32,894 bases of DNA, taken from the NCBI GenBank assembly GCA_012729835.1, contig JAAYCK010000071.1:1-32894 (forward strand). Direction: 5' to 3'. Below are positions 1,422-31,467 of the stretch, piece after piece. Origin of the DNA: Syntrophomonadaceae bacterium (GTDB taxonomy: Bacteria > Bacillota > Syntrophomonadia > Syntrophomonadales > Syntrophomonadaceae). The position numbers and the translations under genes are program-made. Positions within the stretch are counted from its first letter, which is position 1. Each line of letters starts with the position of its first letter. The notes under the pieces are model-generated. The model worked only from the letters and a program-made list of their open reading frames with translations, was not told the DNA's origin and made no database searches.

Positions 1422-1581
1422 GGCAAGTCGTCTCCTTCCGTATATCAGTAATAATATTACATAACAAGATTGCTCATAGGGTTAATAAAGATCTTTCCTC
1501 TATTTTAATGCAGTTTTGTCGGTTTATATAATACTCTAAAAATAACATCAGGGGAAGATAGTGTCAACTTACCTTCGGTTT

Positions 1582-1605
1582 TGTGAATAAACATGTGAAT
1601 AAACA
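1582..1605. repeat. Perfect tandem 12-bp direct repeat
   Basis: TGTGAATAAACA occurs twice back to back, about 160 bases upstream of the regulator gene. Two adjacent identical sites are typical of a binding site for a dimer or a co-operative regulator; autoregulation is a guess. The rest of the 1422-1887 gap holds only the operon terminator and AT-rich sequence. Confidence 0.4.
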
Positions 1606-1715
1606 ACACCTTTTATAATCTAATTCTTCCATTTATCTTAAGAATCATGAAGTTAGCGTTTATTTGTCCTAATATAAAATGGCAATGCTGATAAATGATC
1701 GTTCCCTTATCCTTT

Positions 1716-1742
1716 AAAAAAAATTTCCCGCATAAGCGGGAA
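1716..1742 (-). terminator. Intrinsic terminator of the formate dehydrogenase operon
   Basis: On the minus strand a perfect 7-bp stem TTCCCGC/GCGGGAA with loop TTAT is followed by A and eight T. It lies about 150 bases after the FdhE stop codon, with no gene between. A second AT-rich hairpin (CCAAATAAT, loop TGTT, ATTATTTGG; 1861-1882) sits just past the FdhE stop and may protect the 3' end. Confidence 0.85.
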
Positions 1743-1887
1743 GAAAAAGATTGGGATGTTATGAAAAGCCTAAGCTATTTCATCAATAATTATGGCACTC
1801 AGTCTATCAGCAGCATGTCAAAAGTTTTGTTATCAAGACTAGCCATCGGGGAATCACCTGCCAAATAATTGTTATTATTTGGATTCC

Positions 1888-3359: not shown

Positions 3360-4149
3360 GTAAGTCCCCTCCTTTCGACTTGTTAGCGTTATTGATTATC
3401 CGGGTGGTGAAGAAACTGCCCACTGCTGCTGCCGCCGCCAGAGGAATCAACCAGATGCCGTATGGCTGCACCCAATCCTTCCAGACCACCAGCGATGACG
3501 ATACAGTCGGGTTTACCGGCAGTCCATAGAATTCCGGATCCTCTAACAGCAGATAGAGATAGGTAGTGCCTCCCATGGCGTTATCACCATACAGCTGAGC
3601 CTTGGGATGATCCTTCTTAACCTCAGCCAGACGAGTTTGGGCCAGCGCCTCAATCTCTGCCGGTTCTCCAAAATGCAGAGCACCAGGTTGACAGGTGTAA
3701 ACACAGGCAGGCTTGATTCCGTTTTCAACCCGGTCGATACAGCCGGTACACTTAAAAGTCTTTTTCAGTTCCGGATTGGTCTTGGGAACGCTCCAGGGGC
3801 AGTTAGCGACACAATAACCGCAACCTATGCACTTTTCATGATCAATCAACGTATATCCTGATTCCGTCTTATAAATCGCCTGTACCGGACAAGCCTTCAG
3901 GCAGGAAGGTTCTGCACAATGGTAACACTGATGTTTAAACATCAGCCATTCCATTTTGCCATTCTCATACTTTTCATGCATGCTGATATAGGTCCAAGTA
4001 TTGTACGTGGTGGATGCTTGAGACTGATAGCTGGTGATCAGCTGGGTCTTCTCAGCCTCAAGATCATTCCAGGCCTTGCATGCTACTGAACAGGCTTTGC
4101 AGCCGGTGCATAATGAAGTATCAACAAAAACCTTTTTCTTTGTCATCAT
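3352..4149 (-). CDS. fdnH: Formate dehydrogenase iron-sulfur (beta) subunit
   Basis: A ferredoxin-like subunit with four [4Fe-4S] cluster motifs, in order: CTGCKACSVAC, CYHCAEPSCLKAC, CIGCGYCVANC and CTGCIDR with a distal CVYTC. It wires the catalytic subunit to cytochrome b. A single C-terminal membrane helix (about 238-258, WLIPLAAAAAVGSFF) anchors it, as in FdnH. The start chosen at 4149 follows AAGGAGG by five bases and overlaps the alpha-subunit stop as TAATG; an upstream ATG at 4179 lies inside the previous gene. Length 265 residues, slightly shorter than E. coli FdnH. It has no signal peptide, so it probably rides with the alpha subunit through the Tat system. Confidence 0.93.
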   Translation of the reverse strand: MMTKKKVFVDTSLCTGCKACSVACKAWNDLEAEKTQLITSYQSQASTTYNTWTYISMHEKYENGKMEWLMFKHQCYHCAEPSCLKACPVQAIYKTESGYTLIDHEKCIGCGYCVANCPWSVPKTNPELKKTFKCTGCIDRVENGIKPACVYTCQPGALHFGEPAEIEALAQTRLAEVKKDHPKAQLYGDNAMGGTTYLYLLLEDPEFYGLPVNPTVSSSLVVWKDWVQPYGIWLIPLAAAAAVGSFFTTRIINNANKSKGGDLHA

Positions 4150-7100
4150 TAAGCCCTCCTTGCATTGACAAGGCAGCATTTATATTCGGGAGTCCCTGCA
4201 CCCGGATCACATGCATTCATTGTCACATTATTCGTACTTGGGCCAGGATTCAAGCTGGCAAAGCCCCAGCTCCATGGCATACCAATAGTTTCCGTATCTT
4301 TCCCGTTTATTTTCAGGGTCTGAATACGATCGGTAACCAAGGCGTGTACGGTCAGTTTGCCGCGAATAGAGGATATCTCCACCCTATCCCCGTCTTTGAT
4401 GCCAAGCTTTTTACCAAGGTTTTTGCTTATCTCTGCAAAGGGTTCGGGCATGACTTCATTCAGGAAGGGTATATTACGGGTAATGGCGCCAGCACAGAAG
4501 TGCTCGCAGACACCATATGTTGTAAGAACATATGGATAATCCTTGGGATCGCCAAACTCGGTGGAAACGATCTTGGCACAGGGATTATTCTGTACCTTGG
4601 GATGCAGTAAATTGTTGGTTGGACTTTCAATCGGCTCATAGAATTCGGGCATCGGACCATCAACCGTCATACCTGCCCCGCGAACCGGAACAGCTGCTAT
4701 ACTATCAGCGGGAACGGGTGATGAGGACACGCCGCTAGTGTAGCTGGCTGTAAACAAGCGGCCTACGCCCTCGGGATTCATACGGAAAGCCTGTTTTCCT
4801 TCCGGGGTGTCAGGACCCTTTTTCTTGTCAACCACATCGGGACCATCATTGCCGGTCCAGGTTCCTGCAGCAGCATCCCACCAGATCAGTTTGCGCTTCT
4901 CATCAATCGGCTGGCCGTTGGCATCGCAGGAGGCCCGGTTATAGAGCACACGAATGTTGCCCGGCCAGGCAAAGGCATATTCCTTGTTCAGGCCTAAGCC
5001 GGTGGGGTCAGCATTGTCGCGGCGGTCAGCCAGGTTTTTACCCGGCGGCGTTACGCCGGCATATATCCAGCAGCCGGTGGAAACAGTGCCAATCGGAGCA
5101 TTCAGATAATCAGCCAGGCTAGCGGTTAGCTGGCCGGTATTATCATCATAGCCATTAAGTTCCTGCAGAACCTTCAAGGCGCTGGCCTCTCCGTCGTGAT
5201 CATAGTCCCAATTAGCTTTCAGGATCGGCTCATCTTTGGGATCGGTGCTGCCGGCATAAAGCTCACGCATCTTTTTAAATATCAAGTCTATCATATCCAG
5301 GTCGGGCAAGCAGCCATTAAGTGGCTCAAGGGCTCTTTCCTTCCATTGCACCAGACGGGAAGAATTGGTCATGGTCCCAGCTTTTTCGTAAACGAAAGCT
5401 GCCGGCAGGAATATGACTTCGGTCTTGATAGACTTGGTGTCGATCCCCGGTTCACGCCAGAACTGGGCGGTTTCGGTGTTAAATATGTCGGCCACTACCA
5501 GCATCTCTAACTTGGAAAGTCCGCGGGCCACCATCTTACGGTCAGGGATGGAAACGGTGGAGTTAGAACCCCAGTTAAAGAGCATCTTGAATTGTCCTTT
5601 TTCCATCCAGTTGAAAAACTGTGACTGAACCGGCATATTATCCGGGTTGTTTTTGGGCAGCCAGCCATAGCCGTAATCGTTTTCAGGAGTGGCGTTTTTA
5701 CCGAACCAAGCCTTGAGCAGCGCCACCATCGGTTTATGCTGAACTGAACCATTTTTGACCGCAAAATCATGCAAGGTCACCTGGGCGTTGGTGGGATAGG
5801 GCAAGTATCCCGGTAGATTGGCATTAAGGTTGGCCATATCGGTTGAACCTTGAACATTGGGCTCGCCGCGCAGAGCCTGGATGCCGCCGCCAGCCTTGCC
5901 TACATTGCCCAGCAGCAACTGGATGATGGCATAACAGCGGATACCCTGCACACCAGTGGTATGCTGGGTCATGCCCAGAGCATAAAAGATATTGCCCGGC
6001 TTGGCTGCCGCAAAGGTATCGGCGATCAGCTTGATTTTATCAGCGGGGATACCGGTTATCTTTTCAGCTACATCGAAGGTATAGCGAGAAAAATGCTTCT
6101 TTAGTAGCTGGAATACGCAGTCTGGATCATCCAGGCTGTCAGCCTTGACCGGCTTGTTGTTTTCATCAAGCTGGTAAGCCCAGGATGCATAATCGTACTT
6201 CTTTTTCTCAGAATTAAATCCGGAGAACAAACCGTCTTCAAACTTAAAGTCCTTGCTGACCTTCAACAGGGCGTTGGTTAAGTTCAGAACATAGGTCTCG
6301 TCATAAAGCTTATTTTGAATGTAGTAATTGATCATAGCCCCGAGATAGGCAATATCAGTTCCCGGACGAATCTGAGCAAAGATATCAGCCTTGGCAGCGG
6401 TTCGCGTAAAGCGGGGATCAACCACAATAATCTTAGCGCCTTTCGCCTTGGCACGGTTGACCCACTTCATGGCGATAGGGTGGTTTTCCGCGCAGTTGCT
6501 GCCGGCGATCAGGAAACATTCAGAATTCATCATATCCTGCCAGGAGTTGGTCATGGCGCCGCGACCGAATGAAGGTGACAAACTAGCCACCGTGGGCGCG
6601 TGTCAGATACGGGCCTGGTGTTCGTGATATGGTGTGCCGATCAATCTGGCAAACTTTGTTAACAAGTAAGATTCTTCATTGTCAACCTCAGCGGACCCGA
6701 TCATAGCCAGACCTTCGGCCCGGTTGGCGGGAACAATCTTCTTCTCACCGGTGCTGGTGATTATCTCATCAGTCTTCTTCCAGGTCTTGTTCCGGATTTC
6801 TACAGCTTTCTTGGCGATACGCTCGATAGCCTCGTCCCAGGTAATCTCGGTCCATTCCTCGGCTCCCGGGGCACGATAAAGCGGTGTTTTCGGACGTTCC
6901 TCCGAATAGGCCACCTGCTCAAGACTGGCTGCCTTCGGGCAAAGACCGCCTTCATTAATTGGATTGTCTGGATTTCCTTCCAAATGAACCAGTTTGCCGT
7001 CCTTAATATGCAGGAGCAGACCGCATCCACCTGAGCAGAAATGACAGATACTAGGGACCTTGGTGCATCCATCCAGCTTCAGTGCGTACCCCTGTGCAGC

Positions 7101-7196
7101 AGTTGCTTCCAGATTAAACCCTAAGCCGGAAGCAACTACGGCAGCGGAGATACCTGAAATCTTCAGGAAACCACGACGAGTAACTTTCATAACCAA
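4149..7196 (-). CDS. fdhA: Formate dehydrogenase alpha subunit, selenocysteine- and Mo/W-bisMGD-dependent
   Basis: Catalytic subunit of an FdnG-type formate dehydrogenase; it interconverts formate and CO2 with a protein-bound bis-MGD cofactor. An in-frame TGA at 6605-6603 interrupts the reading frame inside HQARI-U-HAPTVASL, the exact position of the catalytic selenocysteine in the family, so the two ORFs on either side are one gene of about 1015 codons (the E. coli FdnG length). The N-terminus has a Tat signal with TRRGFLKIS, and a [4Fe-4S] site at C51, C54, C58 and C86. The protein is therefore exported. Either the TTG at 7196 (six bases after AAAGGAGG) or the ATG at 7190 may be the start. 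It ends in a TAATG overlap with the beta-subunit gene. Regulation probably acts through the leader RNA at 7563-7657. Confidence 0.95.
6574..6605 (-). promoter_or_regulatory. UGA selenocysteine codon with SECIS-like hairpin
   Basis: The UGA (6605-6603) is followed after eleven bases by a six-pair stem GGTGGC/GTCACC (6591-6586 and 6579-6574, one G-U pair) with loop TAGTTT. Position and size suit a bacterial SECIS element read by SelB, with a GU in the apical loop. The flanking protein sequence is conserved formate dehydrogenase, which rules out a true stop. Confidence 0.85.
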
Positions 7197-7487: not shown

Positions 7488-7562
7488 ACAAAAAACCCCT
7501 CTTCTGGTTTTAATGCCCAATATAGCCTAAAAAGAGCTATCTGCTCTCAGCAAGGCTTTTAG

Positions 7563-7657
7563 GCTCCTTTCCAAAAATACGGGGAGGCATAATCGTTTCC
7601 AAGCATACCCATAGGCCCAGGAACCATGGCTTGGCTTTAGGTCCAAAGGCTTGGAGC
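7563..7657 (-). promoter_or_regulatory. Structured leader RNA upstream of fdhA, Moco-riboswitch-like (copy A)
   Basis: This 95-nt segment aligns without gaps to 19161-19255. Shared blocks are GCTCC, ATGGT, TGGGTA, GGAAAC and CCCCGTATTTTTGGAAAGGA. Proposed structure: closing stem GCTCC/GGAGC; an arm with a tetraloop-receptor-like CCTAA/ATGG; and an arm GTATGCTTG-GAAA-CGATTATGC capped by a GAAA loop. The last arm keeps pairing in the other copy with different bases. A position upstream of a molybdopterin enzyme and next to moeA fits the molybdenum (or tungsten) cofactor riboswitch family; that family call is from context and remembered motif, not a search. The rest of the 7197-7891 gap is AT-rich with no other convincing gene. 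Confidence 0.6.
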
Positions 7658-7770
7658 TATACAATTGTCACACAGCAATGGCTACCAGCAAATTATTGCA
7701 TAGTGTCTGCTACTTAATGCTACTATTCACAACGTAATATATCATAATGCTAATAATTTGTCATTATAAA

Positions 7771-19141: not shown

Positions 19142-19160
19142 ATACAAAATTAAATATTCT

Positions 19161-19255
19161 GCTCCGAGTTCGTATATCCTAAGCGAAAGTATGGTATACG
19201 CACCTTTGGGTACAGGGGGAAACCCCGGTGCCTCCCCGTATTTTTGGAAAGGAGT
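19161..19255 (+). promoter_or_regulatory. Structured leader RNA, Moco-riboswitch-like (copy B)
   Basis: This copy matches the fdhA leader RNA (7657-7563) in length and in all conserved blocks, and folds better. Closing stem GCTCC/GGAGT; an arm CGTATA/TATACG containing a textbook 11-nt tetraloop receptor (CCTAAG with TATGG) capped by C-GAAA-G (19171-19200); and an arm GTACAGGGG-GAAA-CCCCGGTGC (19210-19231). Compared with copy A, pairs in the last arm change on both sides while pairing is kept. The 3' closing strand doubles as a ribosome binding site for the GTG at 19259. The ligand is unknown; molybdenum or tungsten cofactor is suggested by copy A. Confidence 0.6.
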
Positions 19256-19258
19256 ATA

Positions 19259-19462
19259 GTGTCGCTTGTTATGGACAGGTGTACTGTGCTTTTTGCCGGT
19301 ATCTGTTCATTTTTTATTTTAACAGGCGGCTTGTCCCCATGTGTGTTTCACACGGCAGCGGGGGTGTATTCTTTATTGCCAAATTCGGGATTATACAAGG
19401 GAAAAACGCCATTAGGCTTTTTCATACAATCCCAATCTTTTTCCTCCCGCTTGCCACAGTAA
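19259..19462 (+). CDS. Possible small hydrophobic protein under copy B
   Basis: GTG at 19259, four bases after AAGGAG, opens 67 codons. Residues about 8-30 (TVLFAGICSFFILTGGLSPC) look like a signal peptide or membrane helix; the rest has no motif I know. The stop codon lies in the loop of the terminator. The ribosome binding site forms the 3' strand of the RNA closing stem, so ligand binding could block translation. It could be chance or a decayed transporter gene. The remaining gap sequence up to 19636 shows a GTGTG-TTT-CACAC hairpin near 19341 and nothing else clear. Confidence 0.3.
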   Translation: MSLVMDRCTVLFAGICSFFILTGGLSPCVFHTAAGVYSLLPNSGLYKGKTPLGFFIQSQSFSSRLPQ

Positions 19463-30411: not shown

Positions 30412-31164
30412 TTATAGTTTCCAACCGCCATCGACGCTTATCACTTGGCCATTAATATAGGCAGCCTTTGGCGACAGGAGAAAAACGCAGGCTGCGGCTA
30501 CGTCCTCTGGCCGACCCAGCCGGCCCAAAGGCATTTCATCGCTAAGCTCAGCCAGTTCATCCAAGGTCATCTCCCCTGTTAGCATATCGGTAGCTATCGG
30601 TCCGGGTGCCAGTGCATTGACCCTTATTCCTGATGGGCCAACCTCAGCAGCCAGTGAGCGGGTAAGCGCAATTAACCCCCCTTTGGAGGCTGAGTAAACC
30701 GATTCAAAAGCCGCACCCTGCTGACCCCATATGGATGCTATATTGACGATGGATCCGCTACGGCGCCTAATCATACCCGGCAGGGCACGCCGCATACAAA
30801 GAAAGGCTCCCTTGAGGTTTACCCCCATCAGCTCGTCCCACTGATCTTCGCTAATATCCTGCAGAAGTCCACGTAGTGAGATGCCAGCGTTGTTTACCAA
30901 CCAATCCACCGAGCCAAGGTTTTCTTCTATCTGACTAAACATAGCTTCGACCTCAGCGGCAATACTGATGTCAGCCTTTACTGCCAAAACACGATTACCC
31001 TGTTCCTGTAAGCGTTCCGCCAGGTTCCTGGCAGCCAATTCTGAGCGGTGATAATTCAGCGCAACCGGCATCCCTTCCGCAGCCAGAGCATTGACGATCG
31101 CAGCCCCGATCCCTCGGCTGCCACCGGTTACCAGGCAAACTGCCGGCTGGCTTTCTACCTGCAT
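30412..31164 (-). CDS. Short-chain dehydrogenase/reductase, FabG-like
   Basis: A classical SDR of 250 residues. The cofactor loop is TGGSRGIG (about 13-20), followed by NNAG; the catalytic Ser lies in NIASIWG and the Tyr/Lys pair in YSASKGG. The C-terminal PGPIATDML and GQVISVDGG are typical of 3-oxoacyl-ACP reductase FabG and hydroxyacyl-CoA dehydrogenases. Either role would fit. The ATG at 31164 follows GGGGGG by six bases; an ATG at 31182 includes that site. An intrinsic terminator sits only 24 bases before the start, so expression probably depends on read-through. Confidence 0.9.
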   Translation of the reverse strand: MQVESQPAVCLVTGGSRGIGAAIVNALAAEGMPVALNYHRSELAARNLAERLQEQGNRVLAVKADISIAAEVEAMFSQIEENLGSVDWLVNNAGISLRGLLQDISEDQWDELMGVNLKGAFLCMRRALPGMIRRRSGSIVNIASIWGQQGAAFESVYSASKGGLIALTRSLAAEVGPSGIRVNALAPGPIATDMLTGEMTLDELAELSDEMPLGRLGRPEDVAAACVFLLSPKAAYINGQVISVDGGWKL

Positions 31165-31187
31165 TTCTATCCCCCCGTTCATACAAT

Positions 31188-31215
31188 AAAAAATGCCCTT
31201 TTATAAGGGCATTTT
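31188..31215 (-). terminator. Intrinsic terminator directly upstream of the SDR gene
   Basis: On the minus strand ATGCCCTT pairs with AAGGGCAT (extended by A/T pairs), loop ATAA, followed by six T (31193-31188). It lies between the stem-closed RNA and the SDR start codon, as an attenuator would. Confidence 0.75.
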
Positions 31216-31236
31216 CTGGTCTCTTGACATTTATTC

Positions 31237-31430
31237 GGTGGCGGAGAAAGAACGGACTTCTTAGGGTTTAACTTGGGTTCTCTAACTCGCAATGGACCAC
31301 CTAACGATTTATTTTATTCAAAAAGTGAAGGGAACCTGGGTCTCTTGGGTCTCTTAATTTAACTTACTTGAAAGGAGCGTTTAACTCTGGTTCTGGGACT
31401 GACATCCTGATCTCCTGTTTCTCCGCCACC
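31237..31430 (-). ncRNA. Candidate structured RNA closed by a perfect 13-bp stem
   Basis: GGTGGCGGAGAAA and TTTCTCCGCCACC (31430-31418 and 31249-31237 on the minus strand) are exact complements 194 nt apart end to end. A promoter at 31467-31439 predicts a start within two bases of the stem. A terminator follows 22 bases after it. Inside, an 18-nt direct repeat occurs (AGAACCAGAGTTAAACGC and AGAACCCAAGTTAAACCC, 15 of 18 equal); each contains GAACC, which can pair with one central GGTTC (31336-31332). AAGAGACCC occurs twice in the middle. No ORF above 15 codons. I do not know the family. It may be a free ncRNA or an attenuating leader of the SDR gene. Confidence 0.55.
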
Positions 31431-31438
31431 TTAATAAT

Positions 31439-31467
31439 AGTATAAGCAGAGCCACCTGAAAAATCAA
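31439..31467 (-). promoter_or_regulatory. Promoter of the stem-closed RNA / SDR leader
   Basis: On the minus strand TTGATT (31467-31462), a 17-base spacer and TATACT (31444-31439). The predicted start is about 31432, immediately before the closing stem. Confidence 0.6.

Follow-up and report, generated by a model that had tools for sequence, protein, structure and literature searches.

A clamp-closed RNA of the Syntrophomonadaceae with a weakly folded loop and promoter and terminator signals of its own

An intergenic segment upstream of a reductase gene raises the question of whether the RNA that it appears to encode acts on that gene or stands on its own. We analyzed a 32,894-nucleotide stretch of a Syntrophomonadaceae genome (the window). 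For the minus strand near its end, the original prediction listed a promoter, a 13-bp stem closing 194 nt, an 18-nt direct repeat, and an intrinsic terminator, and proposed either an undescribed structured RNA or a switch controlling an acyl-chain reductase. Direct reading of the minus strand confirmed promoter, stem (referred to below as the clamp), and terminator in the claimed order. The elements are as follows.

31467-31462, minus strand: -35 hexamer TTGATT, read in the sequence; TTG occurs at the same place in nearly all relatives
31444-31439, minus strand: -10 hexamer TATACT, read in the sequence; relatives have TATAAT or TATACT 7-9 nt ahead of the clamp
31430 to 31432, minus strand: predicted start of transcription, on the first clamp base or 1-2 nt ahead of it, placed by its spacing from the -10 hexamer
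31430-31418, minus strand: 5' arm of the clamp, GGTGGCGGAGAAA (= GGUGGCGGAGAAA)
31250-31417, minus strand: loop interior, 168 nt between the arms, weakly folded and GUU-rich on this strand
31295-31302, minus strand: AGGUGGUC, the window copy of the loop motif GGYG[GU]U that is common to most members
31249-31237, minus strand: 3' arm of the clamp, UUUCUCCGCCACC, the exact reverse complement of the 5' arm (13/13 bp)
31215-31190, minus strand: hairpin of the intrinsic terminator, AAAATGCCCTT-ATAA-AAGGGCATTTT, with a T-run then extending to about 31186
30412-31164, minus strand: downstream SDR gene (YmfI/FabG-like), a neighbor outside the RNA family

In the window, 17 nt separate TTGATT from TATACT, and 8 nt lie between TATACT and the clamp. 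The 18-nt direct repeat is present inside the loop but is composed of two tandem 9-mers (31337-31354). The predicted transcript (31432 to 31186) has a folding energy of -65.2 kcal/mol (z = -4.1; none of 200 shuffles was equally stable), with clamp and terminator supplying most of this stability. The segment occurs as a single copy in the window genome. The terminator ends about 22 bases ahead of the SDR start codon (ATG at 31164, with a second in-frame ATG at 31182). The product of this gene, which had been called FabG-like, scores above the NCBIfam cut-off for the EF-P 5-aminopentanone reductase (YmfI) and stays under the one set for the FabG equivalog TIGR01830.

When relatives were searched at the DNA level, several genomes gave short matches with the -10 box and the 5' arm at their center, and the same genus gave a longer one. 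These matches proved to be complete units, with the promoter followed by the 5' arm, a variable body, the 3' arm, and the terminator. Genome contigs of 84,980 species were scanned with the pattern TATAMT-N5/6-WAGGTGGCGGAGA, in which the 3' arm was not required. Of the 27 matches, 17 fell in Syntrophomonadaceae and 10 elsewhere, and the 3' arm was present in 17/17 of the former versus 0/10 of the latter. The member set was then widened with a covariance model (R1) that admitted clamp variants; 43 members were accepted, and they come from 34 of the 54 Syntrophomonadaceae genomes and from 16 genera. Nine genomes carry two copies and the other carriers one; none has more than two.

Outside this family, the covariance-model search found no member in two sister families (nine genomes), also with laxer filters, nor among 398 genomes of the phylum, and the exact stem pattern gave a single chance match across the phylum, in GC-rich DNA and without a promoter. 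Several candidates were rejected: pattern matches in the order (e.g., TATAACCTTAATAAGGTGGCGGAG) look like coding sequence and have no 3' arm, the model matches L141, L142, and L151 have no clamp, and one promoter-like match in IMG/VR, which would have indicated viral carriage, lacks the 3' arm and is therefore attributed to chance. Within the family, 20 of the 54 genomes have no detectable copy; the near-complete ones among them include G021, G034, G012, G030, G023, G007, G011, and G025, and their lack of a copy may reflect loss or divergence beyond the reach of the model. No Rfam 15 covariance model matched the window or 17 other members at the gathering cut-off, relaxed thresholds gave chance-level matches or none, and we found no open-access paper describing the RNA. 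That this is an undescribed structured RNA, as originally suggested, is in line with these searches and with the conserved promoter and terminator and the compensatory stem changes described below. We are almost certain that the family is a real clamp-closed non-coding RNA.

The two ends of the RNA form a helix of 10-13 bp that is common to the members (GGUGGCGGAG/CUCCGCCACC). Pairing was counted over 12 pairs in 42 members, one member being left out because its 3' arm has an insertion, and 96.2% of the cells were paired. GGAG and CTCC served as anchors for the columns, so the four pairs that they form have no room to vary here. Compensatory changes, proposed as a check in the original prediction, were found at 5 of the 12 pairs, where both sides had changed. 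The shuffle mean was 1.0, none of 500 shuffles reached five, and controls with slid partners gave at most two. Independent examples are L135 (GGTAGCGGAG/CTCCGCTACC), L147 (GGTGGTGGAG/CTCCACCACC), L133 (AGTGGCGGAG/CTCCGCCACT), and one genus represented by L138-L140 (ATGGCGGAG/CTCCGCCAT). The clamp sequence is near-fixed beyond what pairing needs, with the invariance of the first member set being partly by design, as that set was found via the exact stem, and this near-fixity suggests that the clamp is recognised by something.

The signals around the clamp are conserved as well. A TATAAT-like -10 box lies 7-9 nt upstream of the clamp in almost all members, with a TTG-type -35 element some 16-18 nt further upstream. 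A script detected a hairpin with a T-run after 40 of the 43 members, compared with 11/43 in shuffled flanks, and in the other three the terminator was identified by eye. No coding signal was detected in the RNA, and a coding role was rejected, the longest internal ORFs being shorter than in shuffled sequences. Judged by its sequence, the family thus combines a conserved promoter, a terminator, a covarying helix, and the lack of an ORF, as expected for stand-alone bacterial non-coding RNAs, which are a known kind. We conclude that the window encodes a conserved RNA that is clamp-closed, stands alone, carries promoter and terminator signals of its own, and is probably non-coding.

Conservation of the interior is poor. 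Members measure 145-311 nt from clamp to clamp, with loops of about 120-290 nt, and the loop alignment shows little shared sequence and rapid change between genera. The motif GGYG[GU]U occurs in 28 of the 43 members, compared with 6.7 expected from shuffles, mostly 60-80 nt ahead of the 3' end, and many members have G-N-GAGGU at roughly 45-50 nt ahead of the end. The RNA strand of the loop is rich in RGUU words, with a pronounced strand bias: AGTT occurs 167 times and its complement AACT 22 times, TTAGTT 43 times and its complement once, and AGTTAG 34 times and its complement never, whereas base composition alone would give an AGTT/AACT ratio near 1.8. Sense words outnumber antisense words in 43/43 members. 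Where two dinucleotides are complementary, the loop uses one and avoids the other; it also avoids the self-complementary GC and AT. The loop folds more weakly than dinucleotide shuffles in 35/43 members (mean z +0.78, t 4.2) and more weakly than mononucleotide shuffles in 40/43; L133 and L140 are exceptions whose loops fold well. Because of the strand bias, the avoided dinucleotides, and the weak fold, the loop seems to be selected to remain open and unpaired, although bias and weak fold could also reflect selection for the mere openness of a spacer rather than for binding. GU also recurs with a period of approximately 4.8 nt (z 5.3), and a 3.5-nt periodicity does not stand out; since the 4.8-nt signal is weaker without tandem and short members, it was not used as evidence. 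In the member L064 (positions 1505-1817, minus strand), 14-nt units of the type AAGTTAGTTAATCC are repeated in tandem within the loop, and similar words occur in L082. Such repeats may be a route by which loops grow.

These features can be combined into a mechanism. A sigma-A type promoter directly ahead of the clamp would start the RNA and an intrinsic terminator would end it. The clamp may be recognised as double-stranded RNA, shield the ends, or both, while selection would keep the loop open, exposing many short single-stranded words (RGUU, AGUUA, GGUU) to which a protein or other RNAs could bind in trans. The RNA might then act as a decoy or scaffold in the manner of CsrB, with a partner other than CsrA. 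We give this explanation as a whole, a family-restricted clamp-closed non-coding RNA acting in trans as an open-loop platform or decoy, about an even chance of being correct, and regard the binding or decoy role of the open loop, taken by itself, as a plausible suggestion that falls a little short of that.

Comparison with known RNAs shows partial likenesses. Like CsrB, CsrC, RsmY, and RsmZ, the clamp RNA is a stand-alone intergenic RNA with its own terminator, weak sequence conservation, repeated short words, and variable length. We know of no counterpart of the clamp in these decoy RNAs, and the GGA that CsrB carries in its hairpin loops is depleted in the clamp RNA (66 found versus 98.5 expected). 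A CsrA sponge was accordingly rejected: the genome has a CsrA gene, yet GGA and ANGGA occur at 0.67 and 0.52 of expectation. The weakly structured array of short words also resembles the trp leader bound by TRAP, a protein widespread in the order. A TRAP sponge was rejected as well, as GAG/UAG is not preferred over AAG/CAG and arrays of three occur in 2/43 members; no TRAP match was found in the near-complete carrier genomes G016 and G024. Ro-binding Y RNAs have a conserved end helix and a variable loop, as does the clamp RNA, for which no Rfam similarity was found. With 6S RNA it shares a size of about 190 nt, paired ends, and its own transcription unit, but it has neither a 6S-like long hairpin with a bubble nor an Rfam match, and the only match to RF00013 above the cut-off in this genome lies at another place (G000:C85, 80.9 bits). 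Finally, raiA, OLE, GOLLD, and other large RNAs of Bacillota in Rfam are likewise conserved and non-coding, with roles that are unknown or were recently found. These RNAs have rich conserved folds, whereas the clamp RNA has a single conserved helix, a weakly folded loop, and no Rfam match.

The main rival to the platform or decoy reading is base pairing with mRNAs. Target mRNAs would be paired either by the open loop or, once it is released from the clamp, by the CUCCGCCACC arm, whose CUCC could cover ribosome-binding sites. The RNA has promoter and terminator signals of its own, its open, strand-biased loop is well suited to antisense pairing, and CUCC in the 3' arm is complementary to the GGAG core of the Shine-Dalgarno sequence. 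Against this, the loop varies fast between genera and retains only a short shared motif, and in all counted members CUCC is tied up in a strong helix. We consider base pairing unlikely, though it deserves to be kept in mind. The next rival is a processing helix as in pre-rRNA, in which RNase III would cut the clamp and release the loop as the active RNA. RNase III uses helices of this kind, and a near-fixed helix of 10-13 bp around a variable body agrees with such a role, but the invariance of the clamp at the sequence level exceeds what RNase III needs, which leaves this explanation distinctly improbable.

Cis control of the downstream SDR gene by an attenuator or riboswitch would account for the short distance between terminator and ATG in the window. 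The same SDR orthologue follows on the same strand in 16 of the 43 copies (mostly 55-67% identical to the window SDR over about 240 residues, with one truncated copy at 44%), and it often lies at the end of a cluster that includes genes for a ferredoxin, an Rrf2-type regulator, a NifS-like protein, and a hybrid-cluster-protein-like enzyme, all named by sequence impression. Yet the SDR gene lies 51-1105 bp away, past the RNA's own terminator and at the larger distances with ORFs in between, and 27/43 copies adjoin other genes, so the expectation that an SDR gene always follows was not borne out. A sirtuin-like gene is downstream of four copies, and the other copies without the SDR have varied neighbors, some on the opposite strand; in several two-copy genomes, one copy is SDR-linked and the other is not. 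No conserved aptamer-like fold was found in the family. The two exclusive folds that had been proposed for the attenuator depend on a GGTTC that can pair with either of two GAACC copies; these words exist in the window, but both words occur in only 3/43 members, so the alternative is not conserved. A switch controlling the reductase is thus very improbable, and the SDR adjacency reflects the conserved position of a stand-alone RNA rather than regulation of the gene in cis. A mobile element had already been thought unlikely, and this reading, like that of a MITE or an invertible segment bounded by terminal inverted repeats, is hardly credible. Near-fixed repeats flanking a variable interior and varying genomic positions might suggest it, but there are one or at most two copies per genome, the promoter and terminator are conserved at a fixed distance outside the repeats, and the orientation of the interior relative to the promoter is identical in 43/43 members, so the interior does not invert. 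Overall, the original interpretation is partly supported.

Most known conserved bacterial RNAs are recognised by a rich fold. In the clamp RNA, the conserved fold is one helix, with apparent selection for the lack of a fold inside it, and standard structure-based screens would probably miss such an RNA. We know of no description of a design in which a single fixed clamp encloses a loop under selection against folding. More tentatively still than the decoy role, a sequence-fixed double-stranded clamp with a large loop kept single-stranded by evolution may represent a new class of bacterial RNA, a multi-site platform for an RNA-binding protein or many RNAs that is specific to syntrophic fatty-acid oxidisers. 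The RNA is confined to a family living by syntrophic fatty-acid oxidation, organisms for which we know of little described RNA regulation, and it points to a possible RNA-binding partner.

Two further features of the window were observed. A formate dehydrogenase-like molybdopterin oxidoreductase gene (4149-7196, minus strand) is interrupted by a single in-frame TGA (6605-6603). The surrounding sequence, QARI-TGA-HAPTV, is like that of selenocysteine-containing formate dehydrogenases, and a plain ORF caller breaks this gene in two. Two Moco (molybdenum/tungsten) riboswitches score above the Rfam cut-off, at 7548-7668 (minus strand) and 19150-19270 (plus strand); one lies upstream of the formate dehydrogenase and the other right after a PAS-GGDEF-HD protein.
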